DNA of 16,049 bases from a bacterium (GTDB lineage Bacteria > JAJVIF01 > JAGGVT01), in the NCBI GenBank assembly GCA_021157815.1, contig JAGGVT010000209.1, forward strand, positions 1 through 16,049, given 5' to 3'. The notes under the pieces are model-generated. The model did not search any database. It worked only from the letters and a program-made list of their open reading frames with translations, and was not told where the DNA came from. Positions 1 through 15,138 of this stretch are shown one piece after another (the stretch's first letter is position 1; each line of letters begins with the position of its first letter). The translations under genes were made by a program, and so were the position numbers.

Positions 1-21
1 CCGCTCGCGGGGAGGGCTGGG

Positions 22-1503: not shown

Positions 1504-1598
1504 TTAGTAAGTTAGCAGGTTAGTAAGTTAGTAGGTTAGCAAGTTAGTAGGTTAGCAAGTTAGCAAGTTAGCAGGTTAGCAAGTTAGTAAGTTAGTAA
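1503..1598 (+). repeat. 8-bp tandem repeat GTTAGYAR, 12 units
   Basis: Twelve consecutive 8-bp units fit GTTAG[C/T]A[A/G], starting on the last base of the preceding stop codon, with a decayed thirteenth unit (GTTGGTAC) to 1606. Units differ only by transitions at positions 6 and 8. Stops occur in every forward frame, so it is non-coding. The same satellite occurs in the opposite orientation at the far end of the window. Confidence 0.95.
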
Positions 1599-1661
1599 GT
1601 TGGTACACTACTATCCGGATAAATTATAAGGAAAGCAGAAAAAACATAATAATAATCCACG

Positions 1662-1848
1662 ATGGTAGTAAAAAGGGGAATGTCCCAACCAAGTGAATAA
1701 GTACTGTATAAATGAGGGTTTGCAGCATAGTATATTGATAACGTCAGATTTGAAGCCTATGTGGACGTACCCCATGATTGGGGAATGCCCCTTTTTACGG
1801 ATAGAACGATTTGATATTCACTTTCGATTCATATCTGATAAATACCAT
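1662..1848 (+). repeat. Interspersed MITE-like element, copy 1 (187 bp)
   Basis: The sequence begins ATGGTAGTAAAAAGGGGAA and ends with CCCCTTTTTACGG followed by an AT-rich tail to AATACCAT. The AAAAAGGGG / CCCCTTTTT ends are inverted repeats, and outer TGGTA / TACCA bases also match. The core (GAATAAGTACTGTATAAATG, then TATATTGATAACGTCAGATT) recurs with few changes at 4792-4970 and 7819-7954. A small hairpin, TACCCC-atgatt-GGGGA, lies before the right end. There is no coding capacity, so it would be a non-autonomous element. Similar AAAAAGGGGAC-type ends are often mobilised by REP-associated (Y1) transposases; that link is inferred and no such gene is present. Confidence 0.85.
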
Positions 1849-1914
1849 TTCCCGGGATAATGCGTGGTAACCCGTAACCCGGTCATGCCGTCCCGTGAAC
1901 AATTAACAATTTTC

Positions 1915-1920
1915 TATAAT
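1915..1920 (+). promoter_or_regulatory. Possible -10 box upstream of the epimerase gene
   Basis: A perfect TATAAT lies 57 bases before the chosen ATG at 1977, in an AT-rich stretch. No good -35 hexamer sits 16-18 bases upstream, so this is a weak call. The rest of 1849-1914 holds only short GC-rich snippets (CCCGGGATAA, CCCGTAACCCGG) that look like intergenic repeat remnants. Confidence 0.3.
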
Positions 1921-1976
1921 GTAAATCAGGCATGACGGGGTCGTTGCGTCAAGAAGATAATAAAGGAAACTCAAAC

Positions 1977-2984
1977 ATGGCAAAAACACTGATAACAGGC
2001 GCAACCGGATTCATAGGATCAGCTGTTGCCCGCGCCTTGCATGAATCAGGGCGCGATATCCGCGTGCTGCTGAGAAGCGATCGATATATAAAAAACATCG
2101 AAGGCATCAAATATGAAATCGCCAAAGGTGACCTTACCGACCTGGAATCGCTCAGGCGCGCAATGGACGGCTGCGACAGGGTTTTTCATATCGCCGCGCT
2201 TTATCTCATGTGGACTCTCAAGCCCGAATTGATTTTCCAAACCAACGTTGATGGCACCCGCAATGTTCTAACCGCCGCGATGGATGCCGGCATTGAAAGA
2301 GTCGTTTATACATCTTCAATCGCCGCTATCGGTGTACGGGATGACGGCATCCCCGCTGATGAAACTGTCGAGTGGAATCTTGAACATATCAACGACCCGT
2401 ATGTCAAATCAAAACATCTCGCGATGCTGGTGGCAAAAGAGTTCGCGCAAAAAGGGCTTGATATCGTAACAGTCTGCCCAGCCGCCCCGCTTGGCAAAGG
2501 CGATATCAAACCAACACCAACAGGCCAGATGATTTGCGATTTTCTCAACGGTAAAACTCCGGTCTATTTCCACGGCGGATTCGACCTTGTGGATGTCGAG
2601 GATGTCGCTACGGGTCATCTTCTGGCAGAGCAAAAAGGCAAAAGCGGGGAATCATACATTCTGGGCGGAACGAATATCTACCTGAAGGATATGTATAAAT
2701 TGCTGTCGGACATCAGCGGTATTCGCGTTCCCGGGTTGTTTCTACCGCATGGCTTGGATCTATTTTCCGCATGGACACTGGAGAAAATCGCTACATGGTT
2801 CACAAAAAAACCACCATTGGTAACTCTTGGCGGATGCCGTACGATTAAACTCCCACCGTTTTACGATCACTCAAAAGCAACGCGTGAACTTGGATACACC
2901 TCTCGTCCACTAGAGCAAACCATGAGAAAATCAATTGATTATTTCTATGAAAACGGCTACGCGAAAAACAGGATAAACCTTTAG
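1977..2984 (+). CDS. hpnA: NAD-dependent epimerase/reductase, HpnA-like (hopanoid-associated sugar epimerase family)
   Basis: Extended short-chain dehydrogenase of 335 residues. The Rossmann motif TGATGFIG is at residues 7-14 and the catalytic YVKSK at 142-146, with an upstream serine pair at 113-114. The order of motifs, including NVDGTRNVL, YTSSIAAIG, ADETVEWNL, KPTPTGQMICDFLNG, VEDVATGHLLA and GESYILGG, matches HpnA-type proteins and related dihydroflavonol-reductase-like enzymes. HpnA is thought to act on the ribose-derived side chain in hopanoid synthesis, but no other hopanoid gene is in this window, so the true substrate is open. The start at 1977 is preferred because AAGGAA (1963-1968) precedes it by 8 bases; an in-frame ATG at 1932 would add 15 residues (MTGSLRQEDNKGNSN) without a ribosome site and runs into repeat-like DNA. 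It is probably monocistronic. Confidence 0.8.
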   Translation: MAKTLITGATGFIGSAVARALHESGRDIRVLLRSDRYIKNIEGIKYEIAKGDLTDLESLRRAMDGCDRVFHIAALYLMWTLKPELIFQTNVDGTRNVLTAAMDAGIERVVYTSSIAAIGVRDDGIPADETVEWNLEHINDPYVKSKHLAMLVAKEFAQKGLDIVTVCPAAPLGKGDIKPTPTGQMICDFLNGKTPVYFHGGFDLVDVEDVATGHLLAEQKGKSGESYILGGTNIYLKDMYKLLSDISGIRVPGLFLPHGLDLFSAWTLEKIATWFTKKPPLVTLGGCRTIKLPPFYDHSKATRELGYTSRPLEQTMRKSIDYFYENGYAKNRINL

Positions 2985-3041
2985 CATATATAGGTTTTAC
3001 TCGTTTACCGCGTTATAATCAATTTTGTAATAACCTTATAA

Positions 3042-3185
3042 TTGTTTGTTTATTTACGACTGGGGAATAAATTTATTAAAGACATTCTGATTATAGTTGT
3101 TGTTATGGTTGTTTATTTTGCTCTGCAACTGTGGATTCTTCCCGCGATTGGAATATCCACGCGAATGAGCGACGGATGCAAGTAA
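3042..3185 (+). CDS. Candidate small single-span membrane protein (47 codons, start uncertain)
   Basis: This short reading frame, open from a TTG at 3042 to TAA at 3183-3185, has a basic N-terminal segment (NKFIKD), then one strongly hydrophobic stretch (ILIIVVVMVVYFALQLWILP), then a short polar tail GISTRMSDGCK. That is the layout of a signal-anchored small membrane protein, and I have the impression (from memory only) of conserved small proteins with a similar ILP...MSxxC end. The start is the weak point: the TTG has no clear ribosome site, GGGGA at 3062-3066 points to a start near 3071-3076 where only rare codons exist, and the ATG at 3105 would cut the membrane span. It could therefore be a decayed gene. 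A weak GGTAA-cgtga-TTACC hairpin follows at 3187-3201. Nothing else was found in 2985-3317 except a possible promoter. Confidence 0.4.
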   Translation: MFVYLRLGNKFIKDILIIVVVMVVYFALQLWILPAIGISTRMSDGCK

Positions 3186-3268
3186 CGGTAACGTGATTAC
3201 CATTATTTAGAAAAAATGCAGTATCGGGTTATATTTGAGGGTTGCCTCCCAGGCGCCAGCATATTTTT

Positions 3269-3299
3269 TTGCATCACAAACACAAAACCATGATAAAAT
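3269..3299 (+). promoter_or_regulatory. Possible promoter for the 3318 gene
   Basis: TTGCAT (3269-3274) and TAAAAT (3294-3299) are separated by 19 bases; an alternative -10, GATAAA (3292-3297), gives 17. Transcription would begin near 3305, leaving a leader of only about a dozen bases, which fits the lack of a clear Shine-Dalgarno before ATG 3318. Confidence 0.25.
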
Positions 3300-3317
3300 A
3301 TTATCTTGTAAAGACCT

Positions 3318-4715
3318 ATGAGCGTATCCACACGACCACATTACATCAGCATTGGCGACAGCTCGACAGTTGTCGTGCGAGGCATCGGCGCGCTCCTGCA
3401 CAAAAGGGATTTCGACCCGTTTTGCACCACCCTGATTCAGAAAATAGGCGCCTCGCTTTGCAACAGGTTGCCAAAAAGCACTCGCAAATTCCTGATGGAG
3501 CGCATGACCGGAAGCCTTGGCGTTGATTTCAATCAGGCTAAAAAAATTCGCTCCGATGATTTAGCCGAATGGGTCGTCAGCGAATACCCGCAAGCGCAAT
3601 ATGACTCAGTTATTATCGGAGTGCCATCAGGAGGAGTCGGGCATCTGGCATCTTATCTTGGCGCGCCGTTTTTAACACAGCATTTCCTTGCAGGCTTTAA
3701 GGGAAAATTCCCGATTGATGATTCCGACAGTTATCTCGCCGGATGCGAACCTACCGCGCGAAAAATCGTTCAAACAAATTCCGACCTTCACGCGATAATC
3801 CATTACGACCCTCTTCATGACAGGTTCATTGTCAAACGAACGGGATTCATCCGCGTCAAACTGCTTTTTCTTCATAAGGCGTATCGTGAATTCCTGCTAA
3901 AATCGCTGAAACCCGGCGGAACAATCGTTCTAGTCGGATGCTCATTCCCCTGGCTGCAGTATCAAATCAGCGCCAGAGTGAATTTCCAGCTCGGAGGTCT
4001 TGGCGGCGTAACTCCCGATGAATACTACAACGGCAGCGATAGAATCGAGGAATATATAAATCTCGAAAGACGAAGTTCAGAGAAAACACAAACTCGAGTA
4101 AAGCACGAAAGCTGGCTTCTCTCAAAATACAAACCCGAAAACCATCCCGAATCCGAATGGGGACTTCTGCCATCGTTCGCCGATGATGTCAGAAATTTCG
4201 CCGACAGCCAAAACTTCCGCATTGTTGAAATCATGCTCGATCATCCTGATCAGCTGAGCGAAATAATGTTCAACGCATTCGGCAATTTAATCGCGAATGA
4301 GCATCCCGACAAACCGCGCAAAATACTCATCGATTCATTCACAAACTCATCACCTGCATTCAATAGAAAAATCTCGGCGCAACCGTTGTGGCTGCCGTTT
4401 ATCTGCGATGATTCATTCAATTTCGCAAAACGGATTCTCGATTCCCAACCTGAAGAAACTCAAATCCTCCTCGCGCTTCACCCGTCATTCGCCGACCCAT
4501 TCGACATAATACCGCTTGAAAAGTGGATGGAATATCTGTCGCGCTTTAAAGAAATAAATCTCATCGGCGTTGACAAAAAAAACTATCCCGCCGACCTGAC
4601 CGCATATTACAAATTCAGCGAAGACATAAATAAATACGCATCAACGAATCCATGCCCATTGAAAGCGATAAAGACAATAGATGAATTGCAGCCATACATT
4701 AATTCTGTTCTATAA
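3318..4715 (+). CDS. Hypothetical soluble protein of 465 residues, family not recognised
   Basis: I cannot assign a function. There is no signal peptide or membrane span, so it is probably cytoplasmic. Visible features: an N-terminal SIGDSSTVVVRGIGAL segment (residues about 11-26), a glycine-rich loop IGVPSGGVGHLASYLGAP (about 100-117), an IIHYDPLHDR motif (about 160-169), LLKSLKPGGTIVLVGCSFPW (about 193-212) that resembles the LKPGG strand of class I methyltransferase-like Rossmann folds, and LGGLGGVTPDEYYNGSDRIEEY (about 227-248). The C-terminal third is acidic and helical with PLWLPF (about 355-360). The methyltransferase resemblance is one motif only and no SAM-binding GxGxG is evident before it. 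The ATG start has no clear ribosome site (TAAAGAC at best). Its neighbours, the HpnA-like epimerase and a TIM-barrel protein, lie across repeat-bearing gaps, so an operon is unlikely. Confidence 0.8.
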   Translation: MSVSTRPHYISIGDSSTVVVRGIGALLHKRDFDPFCTTLIQKIGASLCNRLPKSTRKFLMERMTGSLGVDFNQAKKIRSDDLAEWVVSEYPQAQYDSVIIGVPSGGVGHLASYLGAPFLTQHFLAGFKGKFPIDDSDSYLAGCEPTARKIVQTNSDLHAIIHYDPLHDRFIVKRTGFIRVKLLFLHKAYREFLLKSLKPGGTIVLVGCSFPWLQYQISARVNFQLGGLGGVTPDEYYNGSDRIEEYINLERRSSEKTQTRVKHESWLLSKYKPENHPESEWGLLPSFADDVRNFADSQNFRIVEIMLDHPDQLSEIMFNAFGNLIANEHPDKPRKILIDSFTNSSPAFNRKISAQPLWLPFICDDSFNFAKRILDSQPEETQILLALHPSFADPFDIIPLEKWMEYLSRFKEINLIGVDKKNYPADLTAYYKFSEDINKYASTNPCPLKAIKTIDELQPYINSVL

Positions 4716-4717
4716 TC

Positions 4718-4781
4718 GTAGGGGCACCGCTTGACGCGCCCTGATTGGCGTTCCGGAAGAGGCACAGCAAGCAGCGCCCTT
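4718..4781. repeat. GTAGGGGC-type imperfect inverted repeat
   Basis: GTAGGGGCACCGCTTG (4718-4733) is answered by CAAGCAGCGCCCTTAT about 30 bases on (12 of 16 pairs). The same motif family recurs as a GC-rich hairpin near 15700. It starts just after the stop codon of the preceding gene and could weakly assist termination. Confidence 0.55.
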
Positions 4782-4791
4782 ATATTTGACA

Positions 4792-4970
4792 ATGGTAGTA
4801 AAAAGGGGACTGTCCTTACCATGTGAATAAACACAGTATAAATGAGGGTTTGAAGTATGGTATATTGATAACATCAGATTTGAAGCCTTATGTGGACTGT
4901 CCCCTTTTTGCGGATAGAACGATTCGATATTCACTTACGATTCATGTCTAATAAATACCAATAAGCCGGT
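4792..4970 (+). repeat. Interspersed MITE-like element, copy 2 (about 179 bp)
   Basis: It begins ATGGTAGTAAAAAGGGGACT and ends ATAAATACCA, matching copy 1 across its full length including the outer AT-rich tail (GATAGAACGATT...GATATTCACTT). Here the inner ends are almost perfectly inverted, AAAAAGGGGACTGTCC against GGACTGTCCCCTTTTT, and the short extra hairpin found in copies 1 and 3 (TACCCC...GGGGAATG) is absent. The rest of the gap to 5042 is AT-rich without a clear promoter or ribosome site for the next gene. Confidence 0.85.
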
Positions 4971-5042
4971 CTATTCTCTATTAATCAGCAATCCGGTAAT
5001 TGGTCTCTAACTTAACCGGACAATAGTGCTTATTAACATCTA

Positions 5043-6029
5043 ATGAAAATCTACTCAAGCTACTTCTCAAACCGTATCCTGAAACATGTCGCAAACGACA
5101 TGAAAGAACTGGCATCGGATGGCTTCACCGGCGTTGTCCACACATTCAGTGAAAACGATTTTCGCTATTACTCGCAAAGTTTCATCGACATTGTCAAGGC
5201 ATCCCATGATGCCGGCCTCGATGTTGACATCGACCCCTGGGGTGTCGGGCGGGTTTTCGGCGGCGAGGCATTTAGCGCATGGATTGCTGAAAACCCGGAC
5301 TCCATGCAGGTTTCCATCGATGGCAGCCCCAAACCGCTTGCATGCCTCAACTCCGACAATTTCCTTTCCTTCATGCATGAATGGCTTGATGCCGCTGTTC
5401 AAACAGGCGCGGATGGAATCTTCTGGGATGAACCGCATATTTACATTCCCAAAAAAAACGATCCTGAATCCAGCTGGACATGCGCCTGCGACAAGTGCCG
5501 AAAACTTTTTTCTGAAATGTTCAATACGGATTTCCCGGACACTCGAACAAGTCAGGTCGAACAATTCCACGCATGGACTTTGAAAAATTTCCTTGCGCGT
5601 ATGCTTAAACTCGCGAAAGGCGCAGGCATGCGCAACACAGTCTGCCTTCTGCCAAAGGAGTTCGCGCCAAATGACCCGCTCGATTGGTCGGATATCGCAT
5701 CCCTCGACACTGTTGATATCATCGCTACAGACCCGTACTGGTTCATCGCAAAACGTGATGTTGAAAATTTCGTCCGTTCATACAGCAGGCGAATAAAGGA
5801 ACTTGCGGATTCAAACAGCATCGAACCACAAATCTGGATTCAGGCTTTCCGAGTGCCGCAAGGCAGAGAAAACGAATTATCACGCGCGGTTGAAATCGCC
5901 ATCGAGGAGGGCATTGAAAATCTCGCAGTCTGGGGATTCAACGCATGCGCCGATATGTCATACCTCAGATGCGATGATTCCAAACTTGTCTGGGATGTTG
6001 TCAAGAGAGCTTTTAACAATATAAAATAA
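5043..6029 (+). CDS. TIM-barrel glycoside-hydrolase-like protein with CxCxxC motif
   Basis: Protein of 328 residues without a signal peptide. The alternation of strands and helices looks like a (beta/alpha)8 barrel: VVHTFSENDF (31-40), LDVDIDPWGVG (59-69), GADGIFWDEPHIY (122-134), NTVCLLPKE (198-206), VDIIATDPYW (224-233), PQIWIQAFRVP (262-272) and ENLAVWGFNAC (292-302). FWDEPH ends a strand with adjacent Asp129 and Glu130, a position typical of a catalytic acid in barrel hydrolases; it is unproven here. CACDKC at 147-152 (three cysteines) just after that strand suggests a metal-binding or disulfide knuckle in a loop. The exact family is not recognised; a sugar hydrolase role is inferred from fold-like features. 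No Shine-Dalgarno precedes the ATG. The gene is isolated between repeat regions. Confidence 0.8.
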   Translation: MKIYSSYFSNRILKHVANDMKELASDGFTGVVHTFSENDFRYYSQSFIDIVKASHDAGLDVDIDPWGVGRVFGGEAFSAWIAENPDSMQVSIDGSPKPLACLNSDNFLSFMHEWLDAAVQTGADGIFWDEPHIYIPKKNDPESSWTCACDKCRKLFSEMFNTDFPDTRTSQVEQFHAWTLKNFLARMLKLAKGAGMRNTVCLLPKEFAPNDPLDWSDIASLDTVDIIATDPYWFIAKRDVENFVRSYSRRIKELADSNSIEPQIWIQAFRVPQGRENELSRAVEIAIEEGIENLAVWGFNACADMSYLRCDDSKLVWDVVKRAFNNIK

Positions 6030-6107
6030 TAAGACAAGCAACAAGAAAAAAGGCTCTATCAACGTTAGGGGAAAAGAGAATAGTTAATCTGTTATTGGTG
6101 TAAGATT

Positions 6108-6355
6108 CGGTAAAGTCAGAAGGAGCAAAATGTGAAATAAATCGGTGTCAGACACCTTGAGTGTCCTAATGTAGGGTGTCGGACTCCACGATGCATTTTG
6201 CATCATAACGCTGTGGGGCATGGAGAGGGCGGTAGACGAACATTACCGTATATGGCATTTAAAATAAACTTGGGATATAGGTGTCAGACTCCTTGACAAT
6301 ACCATTATCAAGGTGTCAGACTCCGGTAAAGTCTAAGGCGCGAATGTCGGAATAA
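6108..6355. repeat. Cluster of four GGTGTCRGACWCC motifs inside a direct duplication
   Basis: The near-palindrome GGTGTCAGACACC (6144-6156) recurs as GGGTGTCGGACTCC (6174-6187), AGGTGTCAGACTCC (about 6279-6292) and AAGGTGTCAGACTCC (6310-6324). A flanking segment is also duplicated: CGGTAAAGTCAGAAGG (6108-6123) resembles CGGTAAAGTCTAAGG (6324-6338), each followed by a similar run ending in AATAA. A perfect small hairpin GATGCA-TTT-TGCATC lies at 6190-6204. Motifs of this type resemble REP-like sequences linked to Y1 transposases; no such gene is present. Confidence 0.65.
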
Positions 6356-6604
6356 CGAACTATATTTGTCCTAATGATGTTCTGAGTTTTTCGTAACCCG
6401 GATTCTCATTAACCGGGAAAGATGATTATGACCTCACCCAATACTCCGGCGAAGGGATGCCGGGCTACAGAGAAGCAAGCCTTTTAAAAATATCCCGTTT
6501 GGTAATAATTCCAAATGACAGTTCCCACCAAAGGATATTTTTTATAGAATAGGTCTCTTGATTATTTCGACAATCTCGAATTCAAACAAGGGAGTAAAAT
6601 ATAA
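6356..6604 (+). other. Intergenic region upstream of sucC
   Basis: No gene seen. It holds CCCGG-attctcattaa-CCGGG (6398-6418), a GCCGGGCTACAG snippet, and an operator-like inverted repeat TTTGG-taataatt-CCAAA (6498-6515). TATAGAAT (6543-6550) is a possible -10 box without a convincing -35. The sucC ribosome site GGGAG is at 6590-6594. The preceding 6030-6107 is featureless. Confidence 0.4.
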
Positions 6605-7765
6605 ATGAAAATCCATGAATACCAGGCAAAGGAAATCCTTAAAAAACATGGAGTGCCTATCCAGGAAGGCAAAGTGATTTTCAATATCGACGAGGTCAAA
6701 CAGGCAACCGATGAAATTGCAAGCGATCTGTATGTTGTCAAAGCCCAGATACACGCCGGCGGACGCGGCAAGGGCGGCGGTGTCAAACTCGCTAAAAGCC
6801 CTGAGGAAACACGCGAAATCGCTGAGAAAATTCTCGGCATGAACCTGGTTACCCACCAGACTGGCCCTGAGGGCAAAATAGTAAAGCGCGTTCTGATTGC
6901 GCAGGGAATTGATATCAAGAAAGAATTATATCTCGGAATCACAATCGACCGCTCACGCAAATGCCCTGTAATAATGGCAAGCATGGAGGGCGGTGTTGAA
7001 ATCGAAAAAGTCGCGGCTGAAACTCCGGACGCCATAATCAAAGAATGGGTTAATCCAAAAACCGGATTCATGCCCTACATCGGACGCAGGCTCGCATATA
7101 ACCTCGGACTCGAAGGTAAACTGGCGTCAAAGTTCGCGAGTTTCGTTGCCAAACTCTACTCCGCTTTCGAACAGAATGACAGCTCACTGGCAGAGATAAA
7201 TCCGGTTGTAATCACGGAGGATGATGATGTCATCGCGCTGGATGCCAAAATGAATTTCGATGACAACGCACTTTATCGCCATCCTGAAATCGTTGAATTC
7301 CGCGACCTGGATGAGGAAAATCCGTTGGAGGTCGAAGCCGGAAAATTCGGATTGAACTACATAAAGCTGGATGGCGAGGTCGGATGCATGGTCAACGGTG
7401 CGGGACTGGCAATGGCGACAATGGACATAATCAAACTTGCCGGATCATCACCCGCGAATTTCCTTGATGTCGGCGGCGGAGCGAATGTCGAGGCTGTCGC
7501 TAACGCTTTCCGTATTCTTACATCGGACAAGGATGTCAAAGCTGTTTTGATAAATATCTTCGGCGGAATCGTCCGATGCGACAGGGTCGCCGGCGGCGTT
7601 ATCGAGGCGTTGAAACTGGTCGATGTCAAAGTGCCTATCGTTGTGCGGCTTCAGGGAACAAACGCTACCGAGGCAAAGCAAATGCTCAATGATGCCGATT
7701 TCGATTTCATCACTGCTGAAACAATGCAGGACGCAGCCGAGAATGTAGTCGCCGCTTTGAAATAA
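6605..7765 (+). CDS. sucC: Succinyl-CoA synthetase (ADP-forming) beta subunit
   Basis: The 386-residue protein has the normal length for SucC. Together with SucD it forms the TCA-cycle enzyme that converts succinyl-CoA, ADP (or GDP) and phosphate to succinate, CoA and ATP in the cytoplasm. The N-terminal ATP-grasp domain begins MKIHEYQAKEILKKHG, with the nucleotide loop KAQIHAGGRGKGGGVK at 46-61 and Mg-binding residues in EINP (197-200) and DAKM (213-216). The C-terminal ligase domain has NGAGLAMATMD (264-274), FLDVGGGANVEAV (286-298), INIFGGIVRCD (316-326) and VRLQGTNATEA (347-357). All look intact. GGGAG precedes the ATG by about 10 bases. sucD follows on the same strand after 242 bases that include a repeat element, an unusually long gap for this pair. 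Confidence 0.97.
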   Translation: MKIHEYQAKEILKKHGVPIQEGKVIFNIDEVKQATDEIASDLYVVKAQIHAGGRGKGGGVKLAKSPEETREIAEKILGMNLVTHQTGPEGKIVKRVLIAQGIDIKKELYLGITIDRSRKCPVIMASMEGGVEIEKVAAETPDAIIKEWVNPKTGFMPYIGRRLAYNLGLEGKLASKFASFVAKLYSAFEQNDSSLAEINPVVITEDDDVIALDAKMNFDDNALYRHPEIVEFRDLDEENPLEVEAGKFGLNYIKLDGEVGCMVNGAGLAMATMDIIKLAGSSPANFLDVGGGANVEAVANAFRILTSDKDVKAVLINIFGGIVRCDRVAGGVIEALKLVDVKVPIVVRLQGTNATEAKQMLNDADFDFITAETMQDAAENVVAALK

Positions 7766-7818
7766 TCAAACAAGAAAAAGCTCTTCAATAAATCTTTTGG
7801 GTTGAGTTTAGATTGAGT

Positions 7819-7954
7819 AAAAAAAGGGGACTGTCCCAACCAAGTGAATAAACACAGTATAAATAAGGGGTTACAGCATAGTATATTGATAACATCAGAT
7901 TTGAAGCCTCATGTGGACGTACCCCGTTATCGGGGAATGCCCCTTTTTTTACGG
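7819..7954 (+). repeat. Interspersed MITE-like element, copy 3, inside the sucC-sucD gap (136 bp)
   Basis: It begins with a run of A then GGGGACTGTCCCAACC and ends GGGGAATGCCCCTTTTTTTACGG. The core matches copy 1 (AACCAAGTGAATAA, TATATTGATAACATCAGATT, TGAAGCCTCATGTGGACGTA) including the small CCCC-gttat-CGGGG hairpin, but the outer AT-rich tail of copies 1 and 2 is missing. It lies between sucC and sucD. Read on the transcribed strand it could fold end to end, with the right arm finishing in seven T, so it may act as a processing site or partial terminator. Confidence 0.85.
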
Positions 7955-8007
7955 GGGGCAAATAACCCACACAATTTATTGAAACGCCCAAGAAAAAGGA
8001 CAAAAAT

Positions 8008-8877
8008 ATGAGCATCCTTATAAACGAAAATACAAAACTGCTGGTGCAGGGAATAACGGGCGGCGAGGGTAGTTTCCACACGCGCCAGATGGTCGAATAC
8101 GGCACCAATGTCGTGGCGGGAGTAACGCCCGGAAAAGAGGGGCAGGACCTCGATGGCATCCCCGTTTTCAACACCGTGAAAAAAGCTGTCGAGAAAACCG
8201 GAGCGAACGCGTCTGTCATCTTCGTGCGCGCGGCTTTCTGCCCGGATGCCATCCTCGAGGCTGTTGATGCGGGAATCGCTGTTATTGTAACAATCACAGA
8301 GGGAATCCCGACTCGCGACATGATCAAAGTCAAATCGATTCTGAATGACAGCTCGACCACAATGATAGGCCCCAACTGTCCGGGAATAATCACTCCCGGA
8401 AAATGTAAAATCGGAATCATGCCAGGGCCCATTCACAAGCCGGGTAATATCGGAGTTATATCCAGAAGCGGTACGCTTACTTACGAAGCGGTTGACCAGC
8501 TGACCAAACTTGGGATCGGACAGTCAACGGTAATCGGAATTGGCGGCGACCCGATACCCGGTACCAATTTCATTAGCCTTCTTGATCTGTTCGAGAAAGA
8601 CGCGGAAACGGATGGCGTTCTGATGATTGGAGAAATCGGCGGTACAGCTGAGGAGGAAGCCGCGACGTTTGTAAAGGAAAAAATGAGCAAACCGGTAGCG
8701 GCGTTTATCGCCGGACAAACCGCCCCTGCCGGCAAACGAATGGGCCATGCCGGCGCAATTATCGCCGGCGGCAAGGGAACCGCGGCGGAAAAAATCATCG
8801 CATTGAAGGAAGCCGGAATTGCTGTCGCTGAAAGTCCTGCGGATATGGGCATCGCAATGAAGTCTGCGTTGGGATAA
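8008..8877 (+). CDS. sucD: Succinyl-CoA synthetase (ADP-forming) alpha subunit
   Basis: The 289-residue protein is the standard length for SucD. This subunit binds CoA and carries the histidine that is phosphorylated during catalysis. The N-terminal CoA-binding Rossmann domain has [18 protein letters not shown] (11-28), [10 protein letters not shown] (36-45), VTITEGIP (94-101) and [11 protein letters not shown] (121-131). The ligase domain has [10 protein letters not shown] (151-160), [12 protein letters not shown] (177-188), [10 protein letters not shown] (207-216) and the active-site motif [14 protein letters not shown] with the phospho-histidine at residue 247. AAAGGA stands 6-8 bases before the ATG. 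It belongs with sucC upstream; the intervening repeat raises the question of whether both are made from one transcript. Confidence 0.97.
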
Positions 8878-9234: not shown

Positions 9235-11079
9235 TTATTCAACTTCTTCCATTAGATAAAGTCCAACTGTTGAAACCATATACAGTTTATCAGTCGAGGT
9301 ATCCCAGTCCATTCTGAGTGGTTCGCCATCGCAAATCCACGGTGATGAATAAATCCAGATAAAATCAGAATCGAATTTCTGGAATCTGTATGTTCCACCA
9401 TGATCCTCAAGCGTGAAGATATCACCCTTTGAGTTAATGGATATATCAAGACCGCCCATGAACTCACCGTTACCGGTGCCATATGTGCCAACGCTGCTAA
9501 TCTCGTCTGCAGTGCCAGACTGGCTGAAACAGTCACCGAAAACAGATAGTTTGCCCTCAGTGCCGTCCGAGAAAAAGACCAGCATGTTGAGAGTATCGGA
9601 AAGTCCTTCAATACCAACCACACCAATTTTCGGATAAACCTCGTCGCCAGATAAGTTAGATTCTGAAGAGTTAAGGAGATTAGTATCCTTGAACGCAATA
9701 TCCCAGGTAAAAACTGATGGACAAACGTCTGAAATTCGTCCTAATCCAAACAGACTTGGGCCATAACCCATTGGGTTTATATCACTTACATCTGGAACGT
9801 TGCCAACGGTATTAGTGGGGTAGCAGTTATACTGCCAGCAGCATGCGACATTTGACGCAACGCTGCCGGAAACCTCCCAGGTTGCAAGGGTTGAACCACC
9901 GATATTCGTGAGAAGGTTTCCGCCATCGGAAACATCAACTCTGTCCCATTCAAAATTTGGATCCCAATTCCATGCGCCCGGATATGGATTGTTCATTCCT
10001 ACATCGCCCTCATTCAGAACAACCATCGTATCCAGATTGTTCGTGAATTTAAGGCATGTTCGTGATCCCGTATCGGGAAAACCGCCAACATTATCAGTCT
10101 CGGGATGGTCAGCTACAACATAGACAAATCCCTGCGGTTCAACACCAACATCAAACCAGACATCATCAACCGGTTTTTCATAGAATTCAACTGTAATCAA
10201 TCTCGCTTCACCAACATCAACGACTTCCAATTCAAAGAATTTGTATGTCTGATATGCCGGTGTTGATGGTGATACCGCCATTGTTGGAATTATATAAGTT
10301 CCCTCAGGCGCAAGCTCTGAATTTGTTATATCCGCTGTCCATACTAGCGGATCTGCTGTGGCGAGAAAAGTTGTGTTTGCTCCTGTCAGAGCTGATGTGT
10401 CCGCATAAACACCGGTTACATTCTCCTGATGGTCAAGCGCTGTAACTTCGATTGTCGCGTTGCCGCCATCCGGTGTTAATTGTCCTGCAACATTCCAATC
10501 AGTCAGTGCAAGTACACCGCCGGTGTTTCCGGCAAGATCTGCAATGATGAAATAATCCACCAGTGTGTTTCCGCCGGAATACTGAATCTCCAGTGGTTCG
10601 GTATCGATTCCCAGTGGGAACACTCTGTTCGGGTCTTCTTTCCTGAAAGCGATAAAAGGATCAAGATCCCATGGGCCAAAGATGTCCATGTAGCTATCCG
10701 GATTCAGGACTTTCTTGCCGTAAAGATTCTCGAAAACGATACAGGCATCATACACCGTGTATGGTGATACGTTGTTAATTTTGAGAGTGATTTCCAAAAT
10801 ATCAGGCGGAATGAAGTTGTCAATTGTGAAACTGAAATTCGAGCCGACAAAGCCGGTTACATCCATGTAAGCGCTTGCTGAATGTTCACTTGCCTCAATT
10901 GTGCCATCCTCAAGATTCATCGTTCCTGATGCGAGTATTGCCAATTCATGGTTGTTTGCATCAGCAATCTGCTCAGGGGTTGAGTCAGGCTGCGGCGTTA
11001 TCGGGACATTACCGCCCCCGGAACAACCCGCAACAATCAATGCCAATACTACTAGAGAGAGAAAAATAATCGGTCGCAC
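9235..11079 (-). CDS. Lipoprotein with shared N-terminal domain and NHL-like C-terminus (paralogue A)
   Basis: Protein of 614 residues from a GTG at 11079, with GGGAGA 8 bases upstream. Residues 1-19 form a lipoprotein signal peptide with lipobox IVAGC (Cys19), followed by a Gly/Pro/Thr linker. Residues about 46-290 are strongly similar to the 13111-15138 product: ILASGTMNLEDGTIE, YMDVTGFVGSNFSF, DNFIPPDILEITL, a FENLYGKKVLNPDSY stretch, GGNTGGV, LTPDGG and APEGTYIIPTMAVSPSTPAY. This domain is not recognised; its beta-rich look suggests Ig-like or carbohydrate-binding folds. The rest differs: a central Asp/Asn-rich region with a Cys pair (ACCW), and at the end YGTGNGEFMGGLDISINSKG, which resembles NHL propeller repeats. 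It is probably anchored to a membrane and exposed outside the cytoplasm. It has its own promoter and terminator. Confidence 0.85.
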   Translation of the reverse strand: MRPIIFLSLVVLALIVAGCSGGGNVPITPQPDSTPEQIADANNHELAILASGTMNLEDGTIEASEHSASAYMDVTGFVGSNFSFTIDNFIPPDILEITLKINNVSPYTVYDACIVFENLYGKKVLNPDSYMDIFGPWDLDPFIAFRKEDPNRVFPLGIDTEPLEIQYSGGNTLVDYFIIADLAGNTGGVLALTDWNVAGQLTPDGGNATIEVTALDHQENVTGVYADTSALTGANTTFLATADPLVWTADITNSELAPEGTYIIPTMAVSPSTPAYQTYKFFELEVVDVGEARLITVEFYEKPVDDVWFDVGVEPQGFVYVVADHPETDNVGGFPDTGSRTCLKFTNNLDTMVVLNEGDVGMNNPYPGAWNWDPNFEWDRVDVSDGGNLLTNIGGSTLATWEVSGSVASNVACCWQYNCYPTNTVGNVPDVSDINPMGYGPSLFGLGRISDVCPSVFTWDIAFKDTNLLNSSESNLSGDEVYPKIGVVGIEGLSDTLNMLVFFSDGTEGKLSVFGDCFSQSGTADEISSVGTYGTGNGEFMGGLDISINSKGDIFTLEDHGGTYRFQKFDSDFIWIYSSPWICDGEPLRMDWDTSTDKLYMVSTVGLYLMEEVE

Positions 11080-11119
11080 TGTCTGTCTCCCTAAGACTGA
11101 AATTAAGATAAGTTAATGT

Positions 11120-11149
11120 TGTACCAACCTGATATGTAACCAACCTGAT
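11120..11149 (-). repeat. Tandem duplication in the lipoprotein leader
   Basis: On the plus strand TGTACCAACCTGAT is followed after one base by TGTAACCAACCTGAT; in the transcript this reads ATCAGGTTGGT twice. It lies between the predicted start of transcription (about 11151) and the GTG at 11079, so it would be in the 5' leader. Confidence 0.7.
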
Positions 11150-11157
11150 GCGCACAA

Positions 11158-11186
11158 ATAATAGCAATATTATTTACATGCAGCAA
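11158..11186 (-). promoter_or_regulatory. Promoter of lipoprotein paralogue A with dyad element
   Basis: On the minus strand TTGCTG (11186-11181), 17 bases, then TATTAT (11163-11158). The spacer and -10 contain the perfect inverted repeat AATAATA-gcaa-TATTATT (11157-11174). The same arrangement with the same dyad precedes the paralogue at 15138, which strengthens both calls. The dyad overlaps the polymerase site and could be an operator. Confidence 0.65.
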
Positions 11187-11259
11187 GATAAATTTGTTAT
11201 TTTACGGCATATCTTCAAATTGCATTTACTCCACTTAATAAATAAAGTTCAATTTTAAC

Positions 11260-11288
11260 TTGATTTCATTGTTTTTTTTTTTTATACT
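11260..11288 (+). promoter_or_regulatory. Promoter of the Cys-rich/lipoprotein operon
   Basis: TTGATT (11260-11265), 17 bases including a run of 12 T (11272-11283), then TATACT (11283-11288). Transcription would start near 11295, giving a 35-base leader with a strong ribosome site. The T tract could be slippage-prone. Confidence 0.5.
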
Positions 11289-11329
11289 GCCAAAATTAAT
11301 TACGCAGTCATTTTTTGTGAGGGGTCATA

Positions 11330-11992
11330 ATGAGAATGTTTTTAGTATCGTTATTTGTTTGTGTATTTTCAGCATTCTTGGCTACTAGCTCATCAGGAAC
11401 TATTCAGTGTCCACCACCTGGTGGTTTTCCATCTGATCCTGACAATACATATTGCCAATCATTCGGTTTTGAAATATTTGGACTCCCGAATGTGGTTGAG
11501 GTTACCTGCGATGATTATCAGGGACTCTGTTGTTTTTTCATGATTGAAAAATATATTGGCGATATTAGTTGTTGCACAAACTCAAATTGTTTTGAACAGG
11601 GAGAAGATGGTTGCTTGCCGTTTATGGATGGTGGTGATGATGGTTGGTTATGGGGTGTTTTAACTTCTGATGATTCAGTTTGGCATTGTGAAGGTGATGA
11701 ACAGTATTATCCTGAAGAGATTTACTGGGGATGCAATTCAGGCGACCCTCCTCAAGAATTGGATGGGCCACCTTCCTTCTGCGGAAATTGTGATGATGGT
11801 GATGATGATAAGGGGGTTTGCGTGGCTTTTAGAGCTTTGTTTAATCCCAATCTCAATCCTAATTTTAGAACTAATGCAAAATTTGACTGCTTCCCACCAA
11901 GCTGCTGGGACACTTGCGGTGATGCAAATGAAGCGCTGATAATCTGCGATGGCTGGAAAATATGTGGTGATCCAGATTGTGAATTGCTTTAA
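11330..11992 (+). CDS. Secreted cysteine-rich acidic protein, family not recognised
   Basis: Protein of 220 residues. Residues 1-22 are a signal peptide (MRMFLVSLFVCVFSAFLATSS); the mature part contains 20 cysteines, an even number consistent with up to ten disulfides. They include CC pairs at 67-68 and 81-82, CGNC at 151-154 and a C-terminal cluster (187, 192, 196, 206, 212, 217). Asp/Glu-rich glycine stretches (MDGGDDGW near 99-106, CDDGDDDKG near 154-162) could bind calcium. No known domain is recognised; a small disulfide-stabilised exported protein is the best description. GAGGGG at 11319-11324 sits 5 bases before the ATG. Base composition is visibly AT-richer than sucCD. A lipoprotein gene follows after a 34-base gap without a terminator, so the two are probably co-transcribed. 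Confidence 0.8.
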   Translation: MRMFLVSLFVCVFSAFLATSSSGTIQCPPPGGFPSDPDNTYCQSFGFEIFGLPNVVEVTCDDYQGLCCFFMIEKYIGDISCCTNSNCFEQGEDGCLPFMDGGDDGWLWGVLTSDDSVWHCEGDEQYYPEEIYWGCNSGDPPQELDGPPSFCGNCDDGDDDKGVCVAFRALFNPNLNPNFRTNAKFDCFPPSCWDTCGDANEALIICDGWKICGDPDCELL

Positions 11993-12026
11993 TTTTATTT
12001 AAAAAATATTAAGGATGGTATTAAAA

Positions 12027-13046
12027 ATGAAATCTTCAAGTAAAGTAGTTCTACTAGTGTTAATGATGTTTATCCTTGCGGGATGTCAGAGCAATAATAA
12101 TAACAACCAATCAGAAAATGCAGCAAACAATGAAAAAGACTTTGTAACATCACCGGAATCTCCAGATGATTTAATATTAAGAAATCAGATGAATATTGAT
12201 GAAAAAGCTGCATTTCTAAATGACATGAACTGGACGCTTAGCAGCGTCAATGAGAAAGTTTTTTATAAGCCTTTGCTAGTATTCATGTTTGTCAATAATC
12301 GTTATCCTTATGATATTGATGAGTTCATTTCTTCTAAAATTCCTCTTGTCTGGCCTGCAAATCCGGAAACGGGAAATCCATTCGAGATTGTTGATAATGT
12401 TGAGCCGACTAAGGACTACTTTGGAAAGATATCTTATATTCGCAAGTCGGACACTAACGCATGGTTTGAAACAGTGATTTTCGATAAGGAAAAAGATGAA
12501 TATGTTCTATTACAATTGCCATCTGCAGCCCAGGCTGAGAAAACACTCAATGATTTGAAGGAAAACAATAAACCAACGGATTTAGTCTTGGAAAATTATT
12601 TCAGAACGAAATTAAGCTGTGTAATAGACATGGCGCTTAGCAAAGCGGAATATCGTCTGGGAATTGCGACGCCAGGGAATCTTGGTGAAGCGGTACATGG
12701 CAACTTCTTTTTAATAGAAGATAATCTATCCGCAGATTTTTTCAGTGCGGACCCTTCTGAATCTCTTTTCTTTGAGAAAGGATTTGCCCTTTTGGATGAC
12801 GAATTCGTACAATTTGAAGAGTTTACGGTCCGTAAATTATCGCCAAACGGAAATGAGTATTTGCATCATTCTTTTGGTATTGAGTCAATCAGGAATCCTC
12901 AGAATTGGTGGCCAAATGATCAGGGCAAGTGGGACAGTTTGACAAATAAACATGTCTTTTTCTCAACAAAGCAAATTCTTGATGGTTCGTTACATATCCC
13001 GAAGTCTGCCCTTATTAGTAAAAAGGATATTCCGGGTTTGAAATAG
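12027..13046 (+). CDS. Lipoprotein of 339 residues, function unknown
   Basis: The start at ATG 12027 is preferred because AAGGA (12011-12015) lies 11 bases before it; ATG 12015 overlaps that site and would add only MVLK. The signal peptide SSSKVVLLVLMMFILAGC ends in lipobox LAGC, followed by an Asn-rich linker (NNNNNQSENAANNE). The mature protein shows no recognised domain. A segment VNNRYPYDIDEFISSKIPLVWPANPETGNPFEI resembles, in pattern only, the short-sequence YP..L.EL..P..P..G.P stretch seen in pseudopilin-like and related secreted proteins. The remainder is mixed alpha/beta with FFEKGFALLDDEFVQFEEF. It is the second gene of the operon starting at 11330, so the Cys-rich protein and this lipoprotein may act together at the cell surface; that is inference. 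It ends at a bidirectional terminator. Confidence 0.82.
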   Translation: MKSSSKVVLLVLMMFILAGCQSNNNNNQSENAANNEKDFVTSPESPDDLILRNQMNIDEKAAFLNDMNWTLSSVNEKVFYKPLLVFMFVNNRYPYDIDEFISSKIPLVWPANPETGNPFEIVDNVEPTKDYFGKISYIRKSDTNAWFETVIFDKEKDEYVLLQLPSAAQAEKTLNDLKENNKPTDLVLENYFRTKLSCVIDMALSKAEYRLGIATPGNLGEAVHGNFFLIEDNLSADFFSADPSESLFFEKGFALLDDEFVQFEEFTVRKLSPNGNEYLHHSFGIESIRNPQNWWPNDQGKWDSLTNKHVFFSTKQILDGSLHIPKSALISKKDIPGLK

Positions 13047-13074
13047 CATTCAGGATTTCTATAACTGAAAAAAG

Positions 13075-13104
13075 AGACAGGCATAAAAGACCTGTCTTTT
13101 TTTT
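13075..13104. terminator. Bidirectional terminator between convergent genes
   Basis: AGACAGG-cataaaaga-CCTGTCT with eight T on the right (13097-13104) and six A on the left (13068-13073). It serves the plus-strand operon ending at 13046 and the minus-strand gene ending at 13111. Confidence 0.9.
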
Positions 13105-13110
13105 ATCATT

Positions 13111-15138
13111 TTAATGCTCCCCGTGATCTATCCAGATTTCGTCACCAATATCCCTTTGATCCATCCAGCCGATGCAGACATCCGAACCATTCGATGCCAA
13201 ACCCGGATTATACGCATTAGGATGAACAGGGTCATTTATCATCTGTTCATTTATCCATGTTGAACCGCCATCCATTGATTCCTTGAAATAGCAATCCTGA
13301 TTTGTGAATATGTCAGGCGCTGAATACCACGATGCCAGCCACCGGTCCGATTCCTCACAAAACAGCGATGAGCTGAACATAAATTCCGCCGAGCTGAACA
13401 CTACCACTTCAGGCATAAACGATGTCGCGTTGGCATCGACTGATTTCACAAACAGCAAATCAAGCGCCGTTGGATACCGATTATAGTCATACAAAATCCC
13501 TGCGATACCCGTTGACGGATTAACCGCCAAAATCGGATTCTTCTCATCCAGCCCTGACATCCAGTCAACACTGACAAAAATATCAGCGCCCCAATTGACC
13601 CCATCTGAGGATGAGTCGAAACAAACTCGCGAACCGGCTGAAACCGCCGCTTCATCTGACCAGCAGGCCATTATCTTTTCACTTACAGGATTAAACGCAA
13701 TGTCAGGATAAACAACATCCATTCCAGGATCGATTATGTCACTCACCTGATTAAACACCCACGGATTCGCGCCGTTTTTACTTGCAACCCAAATCGATTC
13801 CTTGTCTTCACTATATGCAACATATACTTTTTCTTCGGTTGAATACGGGTCAACACATATCGATGGCATATGTTTGCCAGATGTCGATGCGTACCAGACA
13901 TCCCAGCTTTCGCCATCATCATCGCTTTTAAGTATGTCAAAGTAATATATGGAAGACTGGCTTACTCGCTCATGAGCTATATATAAAACATTGCCCTTTT
14001 TCGCCATGCTGGTGTAATGAAGAATATCTCCATAAGTTGGTTCGTTTGTTAACCTTGCCGGCTCCTGCCACGTTTCGCCGCCATCGGTGGATTTAACAAA
14101 GTGAATATCTCCCTTTGCCCAGTATTGAGGGCTGACGTACAAACTGTTAAACGACAAATAGAAATTATCGCCGTCAGCAATCATGTTGTGGCGACCTTCC
14201 GTACCCGCCCAGTGACTCGCGCCTCCGGGATTGAAAATGAAAATGTCATCCCCGAAAATAGTAGCGGATGAGTCTGCCACATGTATCTTGAAAAAGTTAT
14301 ATGTATGGTACATGGGCGATGATGGCGATGATGCCATAACCGGAATTGTATATTCACCAACCGGCGCATGTTGTGTATTTGATATGGACGCCTCCCACGG
14401 GTTCGGATATCCGACCTGCGTGAAAGTTGTGATTCCGCCGGTAAACACTGATGTATCAGCAACAACAGTTCCAATATCCGCCTGATAATCATGAGCGGAA
14501 ACGATGGCATCAACCGTGCCGCCATCCGGCTTTAATACACCGTCAACATGCCATGTATCAATCGCATATACACCACCCGTATTTCCACCCAGATGCGCGA
14601 TGATATAAAAGTCAACATATGGATTCCCCCCGGGATATTTCAACAAAAGCTGCTCGGTGTCACCCATCGGAGGAAATTCCCTTAATGCATGCTCTTTTCT
14701 GAACACGATGAACGGATTTATATCCCACGGTTGGAATATATCTATATAACAATCGGGGTTCATCACAGTTTTACCATATAGATCATCGAAAACGACATAG
14801 ACATCATATACAGTCAGCCCTGACAGATTGACAAGTTCGAGTGTGATATCGAGAATATCGGGCGGGATAAGGTTGTCTATATGAAAGGAAAAATTTGATC
14901 CGACATACGGTGTTACATCCATATATGGCGAAACAGTTCTGTTATTGATTTCAATAGTGCCGTCATCGAGATTCATTGTTCCAGATGCGAGTATGTGAAC
15001 ATCGCCACGTTGTGAATTATTTTCCATTGACGGCATATCCGCAACGCTGTCAGGAACAACAGTCGAATTGCCGGAGTTGGAACATCCTGCAGCAATCACC
15101 AGAAGTGAAATTATAATTATGAATAGAGAAGTACGCAT
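13111..15138 (-). CDS. Lipoprotein with shared N-terminal domain and sialidase-like Asp-box repeats (paralogue B)
   Basis: Protein of 675 residues; ATG at 15138 with AAGGTGA 5 bases upstream. Signal peptide with lipobox IAAGC (Cys19). Residues about 46-290 match paralogue A (ILASGTMNLDDGTIE, YMDVTPYVGSNFSF, IPPDILDITLEL, FDDLYGKTVMNPDCY, GGNTGGVYA, APVGEYTIPVMASSPSSP). From about 300 the protein differs: it has four Asp-box motifs, STDGGETW (350-357), SDDDGESW (405-412), SSDGVNW (510-516) and SMDGGSTW (621-628). Such SxDxGxTW boxes mark beta-propeller blades in sialidases and BNR-repeat proteins. Sialidase activity is not claimed: the catalytic arginine triad was not traced. The protein likely sits on an outer surface and binds or cleaves glycans, or is structural. 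It is probably transcribed alone, and it shares its promoter design with paralogue A. Confidence 0.87.
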   Translation of the reverse strand: MRTSLFIIIISLLVIAAGCSNSGNSTVVPDSVADMPSMENNSQRGDVHILASGTMNLDDGTIEINNRTVSPYMDVTPYVGSNFSFHIDNLIPPDILDITLELVNLSGLTVYDVYVVFDDLYGKTVMNPDCYIDIFQPWDINPFIVFRKEHALREFPPMGDTEQLLLKYPGGNPYVDFYIIAHLGGNTGGVYAIDTWHVDGVLKPDGGTVDAIVSAHDYQADIGTVVADTSVFTGGITTFTQVGYPNPWEASISNTQHAPVGEYTIPVMASSPSSPMYHTYNFFKIHVADSSATIFGDDIFIFNPGGASHWAGTEGRHNMIADGDNFYLSFNSLYVSPQYWAKGDIHFVKSTDGGETWQEPARLTNEPTYGDILHYTSMAKKGNVLYIAHERVSQSSIYYFDILKSDDDGESWDVWYASTSGKHMPSICVDPYSTEEKVYVAYSEDKESIWVASKNGANPWVFNQVSDIIDPGMDVVYPDIAFNPVSEKIMACWSDEAAVSAGSRVCFDSSSDGVNWGADIFVSVDWMSGLDEKNPILAVNPSTGIAGILYDYNRYPTALDLLFVKSVDANATSFMPEVVVFSSAEFMFSSSLFCEESDRWLASWYSAPDIFTNQDCYFKESMDGGSTWINEQMINDPVHPNAYNPGLASNGSDVCIGWMDQRDIGDEIWIDHGEH

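Follow-up and report, generated by a model that had tools for sequence, protein, structure and literature searches.

Two lipoproteins with a shared N-terminal module

Two lipoprotein genes, P0001 and P0002, are located on the minus strand of the window, i.e. the whole analysed stretch of 16,049 nucleotides. Each product carries a signal peptide with a lipobox at Cys19, a shared N-terminal module (NTD) containing two domains, A and B, and a C-terminal module (C-module) of its own. The features are the following:

9235-11079, minus strand: P0001, 614 aa, GTG start; signal peptide and lipobox Cys19, NTD and NHL-like C-module (ORF, profiles)
10216-11076, minus strand: NTD of P0001, residues 2-288, 53% identity with the P0002 NTD (family alignment A1)
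10522-10947, minus strand: domain A of P0001, beta-sandwich (alignment A7; AlphaFold model of the P0002 counterpart, pLDDT 86.7)
10216-10515, minus strand: domain B of P0001, Ig/FN3-like (alignment to the modelled domain B of P0002)
9238-10209, minus strand: C-module of P0001, residues 291-614, NHL-like repeats at its end (profile; homologs on subfamily-2 lipoproteins)
13111-15138, minus strand: P0002, 675 aa; signal peptide and lipobox Cys19, NTD and BNR/Asp-box C-module (ORF, Pfam BNR_2)
14272-15138, minus strand: NTD of P0002, residues 1-289 (BLASTP, alignment A1; AlphaFold pLDDT 86.8)
14578-15003, minus strand: domain A of P0002, residues 46-187 (separate AlphaFold model; CBM2-like or generic sandwich matches, Z 6-8)
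14272-14571, minus strand: domain B of P0002, residues 190-289, Ig/FN3/transglutaminase-C-like, Z 9-10
13114-14271, minus strand: C-module of P0002, residues 290-675, BNR/sialidase-like propeller repeats (Pfam, profile)

BLASTP aligned residues 1-288/289 of the two proteins at 53% identity (E 4e-95) and detected no significant similarity past these residues. The initial annotation had noted a lipobox with Cys19 in both proteins and an alignment over residues of about 46-290. The lipobox was present in both, all of the long motifs quoted for the shared region were found and the shared region was real, but its actual span was slightly wider than proposed. The similarity is far above chance, because the NTD of P0002 alone gave 44 matches in its own genome and the family profile gave 142.

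Asp-box repeats had been suggested for the C-terminus of one protein and an NHL-like end for the other, and both suggestions held. The C-module of P0002 matched Pfam BNR_2 at E 2.5e-4, which is short of Pfam's curated cut-off, and its profile matched sialidase propellers at E 3e-6. A four-row profile of the C-module of P0001 matched the NHL structures of TRIM2/3/71 at E 1.6e-7. As had been proposed, the two C-modules were unrelated in sequence (hhalign probability 0.2%); broadly defined, both may be beta-propellers.

Size and distribution of the family

A total of 98 complete NTDs were verified in the genome, and they fall into two homologous subfamilies, of which subfamily 2 has the longer NTD (approximately 430 aa). 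About 85 of the profile matches were located at profile positions 3-110. The possibility that these were partial or signal-peptide matches was rejected, as most of those fetched aligned as subfamily 2; a few weak ones among them may be signal-peptide matches. A lipoprotein at positions 12015-13046 of the window, unrelated to the family, matched an early iteration of the profile at positions 4-65 only.

All four genomes of the phylum, which is a small one, were positive, with 56-189 matches each, and a search of 385 genomes gave only two weak positives outside the phylum, in agreement with the lineage-specific family that had been predicted. Relatives found in the profile scan of genome contigs were 'Planctomycetota bacterium CSMAG_1386' and LacPavin_0920_SED3_MAG_49_9. 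In the literature searched on the NTD family, or on lipoprotein expansions in uncultured phyla, nothing on the family was found. It is estimated that the NTD heads about 5% of the genes of its own genome (approximately 135 of an assumed 2,700).

Structure of the N-terminal module

The NTD is built from the signal peptide, the lipobox cysteine, a short CSS-x(n)-P tether, domain A and the Ig/FN3-like domain B. Cys19 was invariant among the members aligned in A1 and A10. Neither the NTD nor a 52-row NTD profile gave a convincing match in Pfam, NCBIfam or PDB sequences, and the subfamily-2 NTD likewise matched no known domain. The shared domain, which was not recognised in the initial annotation, has thus not turned out to be a well-known one.

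AlphaFold modelled the NTD of P0002 as two confident beta-sandwiches. Domain B was similar to Ig, FN3 and transglutaminase-C-like domains with Z values of 9-10. Domain A matched CBM2-like or generic sandwiches with Z values of 6-8. A known superfamily was considered for domain A and is not claimed, because Foldseek gave nothing at E <= 0.001 and the Z values obtained by VIA were tied and middling, with unrelated structures such as integrin legs and adaptin ears level with the CBM2 ones.

The structural neighbours of domain A include many CBM2 cellulose/chitin-binding domains (e.g. 3ndy_E, 6qfs and 2cwr; Z 6-7.4), which resemble it in overall arrangement. An alternative explanation is therefore that the NTD is itself ligand-binding and tethers the proteins to one common coat or substrate polymer, while the C-modules vary the action; several C-modules are sialidase-propeller-like or carry hydrolases, as would fit such a role. 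CBM2 binding relies on exposed tryptophans. However, no conserved Trp was present in domain A in the A1 consensus, no Pfam CBM match was seen in any member (0 of 52 NTDs at E 0.1) and the Z values are no higher than a common arrangement would give. A ligand-binding NTD thus appears unlikely. Since domain A matches mostly a common arrangement, the preferred interpretation of the NTD as a mount for the C-modules rests on its position and constancy and not on a recognised function.

Exchange of C-terminal modules

The 107 C-termini in the genome sorted into about 42 types, defined as single-linkage BLAST clusters, so that distant homology missed by this method, especially among propellers, would lower the type count. 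The profile search proposed in the initial annotation has thus revealed many lipoproteins with one domain and diverse C-termini. LVIVD, PQQ, SBBP, PD40, BNR, PKD, fn3, Peptidase_C11 and M23 were named among the C-modules. Propellers, PKD and fn3 dominate those with Pfam names, next to a few peptidases; many C-modules are unnamed.

The NTD was not bound to one C-terminal type. Pairs of NTDs with 65-82% identity were found with no similarity between their C-modules, and at the junction between domain B and the C-module the identity dropped from approximately 80% to approximately 20% within 25 residues. At the DNA level, homology stopped no more than about 25 nt from the end of the NTD in seven of eight pairs. 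Conversely, C-modules with 44-67% identity, including that of P0001, were carried by NTDs that were less than 28% identical or had no BLAST match to each other. Homologs of the P0001 C-module (42-47% identity) are present on three subfamily-2 lipoproteins, and the modules therefore truly swap. On the tree of subfamily-1 NTDs at least 40 changes of C-type were counted, where 29 would be the minimum and shuffled labels gave about 50. The NTD itself is under purifying selection, with dN/dS values of 0.03-0.16, although the highest dS values are near saturation. As a natural experiment, the family displays domain shuffling between a constant, probable mount and exchanged ends, with the breakpoints visible.

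Proposed role of the N-terminal module

A role in surface attachment or assembly had been suggested for the shared domain in the initial annotation. The NTD is probably a lipid-anchored mount or docking unit, which would display interchangeable modules at the outer membrane. Each protein would leave the cytoplasm by the Sec route, receive its lipid at Cys19 and be delivered to the outer membrane, where domains A and B, as a standard docking unit, would keep the C-module clear of the membrane. The docking units could be held by a common partner or by one another. Parallel production of many members would result in a surface repertoire of binding modules and hydrolases (propellers, PKD, fn3, clostripain and M23), and new members would arise by duplication and recombination at the boundary between NTD and C-module. 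The genome has Omp85, a marker of diderms, and LspA, the signal peptidase for lipoproteins; LolA was looked for and not found. T9SS cargo shares a C-terminal sorting domain; in a sample of 22 C-terminal ends of the family, inspection by eye showed no common tail.

A more specific version of this model is put forward tentatively. Tether, domain A and domain B together might form the anchor or sorting unit of an undescribed, phylum-specific outer-membrane display, in which one dedicated partner or array docks about a hundred lipoproteins and new functions are acquired by exchange of C-terminal cassettes at a fixed boundary.

The residues following the lipobox cysteine had the consensus S-S/G-polar-P. 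Ser at +2 was found in 108 of 123 family members and in 6 of 22 non-family lipobox matches; the tether C[SGA]x(2-5)P was found in 93 of 123 and 2 of 22, respectively, where the non-family set is both small and crudely called. The enrichment of the tether, together with a constant NTD on variable cargo, could also mean that the NTD is a targeting signal, which addresses the proteins to an export or flipping machine specific to the lineage; the tether, with or without domain A, would then mark the cargo and domain B would act as a spacer. A Cys-adjacent N-terminal export signal of this kind is known from Bacteroidetes surface lipoproteins, namely the LES, an acidic motif (K-(D/E)2 or S-D-D-D-D) at about +2 to +6 after the cysteine (Lauber et al. 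2016, PMC5080379). In both cases a short conserved motif lies directly behind the lipid-bearing cysteine in a large set of lipoproteins. The CSS-x(n)-P motif is, however, non-acidic and has a large, conserved unit of two domains behind it, and for a signal alone two domains with about 250 conserved residues, kept under strong purifying selection, would be unnecessary. The targeting explanation is accordingly regarded as rather improbable.

With the NTD as a mount, the family points to a lineage-specific loading of the outer membrane and suggests a general-purpose means by which an uncultured bacterium could present many functions on the outside of its cell. The NTD profile would annotate several hundred proteins which are now without a family.

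Comparison with known systems

The closest layouts are found in APD1/APD2 of Amoebophilus asiaticus and in MafB-N of Neisseria. APD1 and APD2 head lipoproteins with a signal peptide and lipobox, a lineage-specific N-terminal domain and polymorphic C-termini, which the cell is thought to deploy from its surface in parallel (Zhang et al. 2012, PMC3482391). As in the NTD family, the lipobox lies directly ahead of the conserved N-terminal domain, and within a genome one kind of such domain carries highly polymorphic C-termini. In contrast, the NTD appears to be a different domain, as judged from Pfam; it occurs in all four genomes of the phylum, with at least 98 complete copies in one of them; and the APD C-termini are host-directed effectors, whereas those of the NTD family are mainly beta-propellers, PKD and fn3 with some peptidases. 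In polymorphic toxins the C-termini are toxin domains, and a cognate immunity gene lies downstream. It is highly improbable that the C-modules serve as surface-delivered weapons in the manner of such toxins or of the Amoebophilus effectors (PMC3482391), despite the common layout and lipobox, as no toxin domains were among the C-modules named.

MafB-N is likewise a lineage-restricted, conserved N-terminal domain with variable C-termini and a proposed role in surface anchoring (PMC3482391). However, MafB depends on a second protein, the lipoprotein MafA, to hold it, whereas the NTD proteins each carry their own lipobox, and toxins with immunity partners are a feature of MafB (PMC3482391). Given these precedents for lipoproteins with a constant N-terminus and a variable C-terminus, the NTD family does not represent a new principle. 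It is a new and much larger variant of such lipoproteins, built on an uncatalogued domain.

Two lipoproteins with a common N-terminal module

Two paralogous lipoproteins were found where the initial annotation had placed them, both with a signal peptide and a lipobox with Cys19:

9235-11079, minus strand: P0001, ORF of 614 aa with a GTG start
13111-15138, minus strand: P0002, ORF of 675 aa

As described there, a shared N-terminal region is followed by differing ends. Residues 1-288/289 were 53% identical (BLASTP, E 4e-95), with no match past that point, and the remaining parts (C-modules) were unrelated in sequence, with an hhalign probability of 0.2% between a 4-row profile for P0001 and a 6-row profile for P0002. 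The Asp-box repeats and the NHL-like end were also recovered: the P0002 C-module was BNR/Asp-box, sialidase-like, and NHL-like sequence was located in the final part of that of P0001. Both may be propellers in a broad sense. The opposite strand between the two genes (11330-13046, plus strand) encodes a Cys-rich exported protein of 220 aa and an unrelated lipoprotein of 343 aa, both without a Pfam match. Upstream (1-8877) are genes for a NAGPA-domain protein, an NAD-dependent epimerase, two further proteins that had no Pfam match (3318-4715 and 5043-6029) and then both succinyl-CoA ligase subunits; no link of these genes to the lipoproteins was evident.

The shared N-terminal module (NTD), not recognised initially, gave no convincing match in Pfam, NCBIfam or PDB sequence families. 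Its AlphaFold model, built with 52 family members, was confident and all-beta (mean pLDDT 86.8, core >90), and was divided as follows:

residues 22-41: tether, low confidence
residues ~46-187: domain A
residues ~190-289: domain B

Modelled domain B resembled Ig, FN3 and transglutaminase C-terminal sandwiches (Z 9-10). Domain A, with a pLDDT of 86.7 when modelled by itself, had only middling predicted structural matches, the best being WSSV VP37 (Z 8.2). CBM2-type domains and chitinases came next at Z 6-7.4, level with integrin legs and adaptin ears. Because the matches were middling and unrelated ones tied, domain A was not assigned to a superfamily. Cys19, Pro26, Arg67, Asn104, Asp112, Arg114, Asp129, Thr132, Pro142, Arg153, Asp217, Gln219, Gly261, Tyr263 and Ser271 were invariant or nearly so in the family.

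Family size, range and constraint

The suggestion of a lineage-specific family with diverse C-termini was supported by a profile search. It gave 142 matches in the window's own genome, compared with 44 places matching the P0002 NTD as single query, and all four genomes that represent the phylum in the collection were positive (142, 189, 155 and 56 matches). Among 385 genomes, mostly outside the phylum, two outside were positive, both weakly. One of these carries a distant domain-A-like lipoprotein (L156), propeller-like by eye downstream, which is possibly a source or an offshoot of the family. Two named relatives are 'Planctomycetota bacterium CSMAG_1386', a type of name used in a cold-seep catalogue (PMC10491686), and a MAG from Lac Pavin sediment, the sampling of which is described in PMC9875498.

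From fetched stretches only, 98 complete NTDs were verified in the own genome, 44 in subfamily 1 (the kind of P0001 and P0002) and 54 in subfamily 2, in which the NTD is longer (~430 aa). Homology between the subfamilies extended from end to end (hhalign 100%, E 1.6e-41). Family genes were clustered (contigs C118, C98, C104, C56 and C87), with 39 neighbour pairs closer than 4 kb against a random expectation of ~18.

NTD dN/dS was 0.03-0.16 in nine pairs, which indicates that the NTDs are constrained, working sequences, although several dS values were close to saturation. Two paralogs in the own genome, L058/L163 (C104:11295-11314) and L056/L164 (C206:8837-8856), had an in-frame stop (TAG and TAA) at the identical NTD codon, the E of NCxEPYE, with frames otherwise open for >500 codons onward. 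A pattern search of the four genomes found this stop in these two copies only, and since the flanking codons differ, the stops look independent. Further copies with a single in-frame stop (C104:13218, TGA; C195:752; C175:1; C98:15551; C98:2303; C154:7435) are probably pseudogenes or assembly errors.

Exchange of C-modules

The 107 C-modules of the own genome fell into ~42 BLAST types (single-linkage clusters), six of which were common to both subfamilies. Pfam named propellers (LVIVD, PQQ, SBBP, PD40, BNR and FG-GAP), PKD, fn3, clostripain (Peptidase_C11), M23, beta-helix and further modules; many had no Pfam name. A clade of seven NTDs, at least ~65% identical, carried two PQQ propellers, two PD40 propellers, one PKD-containing module and two unnamed ones. 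At the end of domain B in such pairs, identity fell from ~80% to ~20% inside 25 residues. In seven of eight pairs, DNA homology stopped no more than ~25 nt from there, and in the remaining pair 67 nt from there; upstream of the gene, DNA homology was limited to short stretches of 30-60 nt. Conversely, C-modules 44-67% identical were found on NTDs that were <28% identical or had no BLAST match.

Within the phylum, the P0001 C-module type was otherwise confined to three subfamily-2 lipoproteins, at 42-47% identity. In the subfamily-1 tree (a quick tree, like the others), P0001 and P0002 were sisters with a support of 100, and the nearby L007 had the C-type of P0002; it was therefore probably P0001, rather than P0002, that exchanged its end. 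At least 40 changes of C-type were required for 30 types, where the minimum is 29 and shuffled labels need ~50; C-type thus tracks descent in part, yet has recurred or moved.

Localization and role of the N-terminal module

Serine directly followed the cysteine in 108 of 123 family members, compared with 6 of 22 lipobox hits outside the family; for C[SGA]x(2-5)P, the counts were 93 and 2, respectively. The outside set is small and crudely called, and both of its motif positives resemble missed members (one, Q37, was subsequently counted in the family). Omp85 proteins and LspA in the own genome show a diderm cell that lipidates proteins. This genome encodes Omp85 and on the order of a hundred lipoproteins or more, yet LolA (PF03548) was not detected; the genome is only 91% complete, and its LolA may be divergent. 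MacB_PCD hits could belong to LolCE or equally to other exporters.

The family combines a lipobox and a constant, constrained NTD with swapped C-modules, and is almost entirely restricted to one lineage. Its members would be exported by Sec, lipidated and located at the outer membrane, where domains A and B may form a mount or docking unit for C-modules acting outside the cell. This role in display is somewhat favoured over a common ligand-binding role of the NTD, an export-signal role or, lastly, a toxin system, because the constant part always lies between the lipid and the variable part, is conserved far beyond the needs of a mere spacer, and carries modules typical of surface binding or hydrolysis.

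In Bacteroidetes, a short motif after the cysteine is known to drive surface export (PMC5080379). Amoebophilus APD1/APD2 have a lipobox, a lineage-specific constant domain and a polymorphic C-terminus, the same layout as in the present family, and the constant/variable layout of Neisseria MafB-N is similar (PMC3482391). The layout itself is known; the present family is new in its pair of domains, its number of copies, its spread across the phylum, its modules other than toxins and its clean breakpoints.
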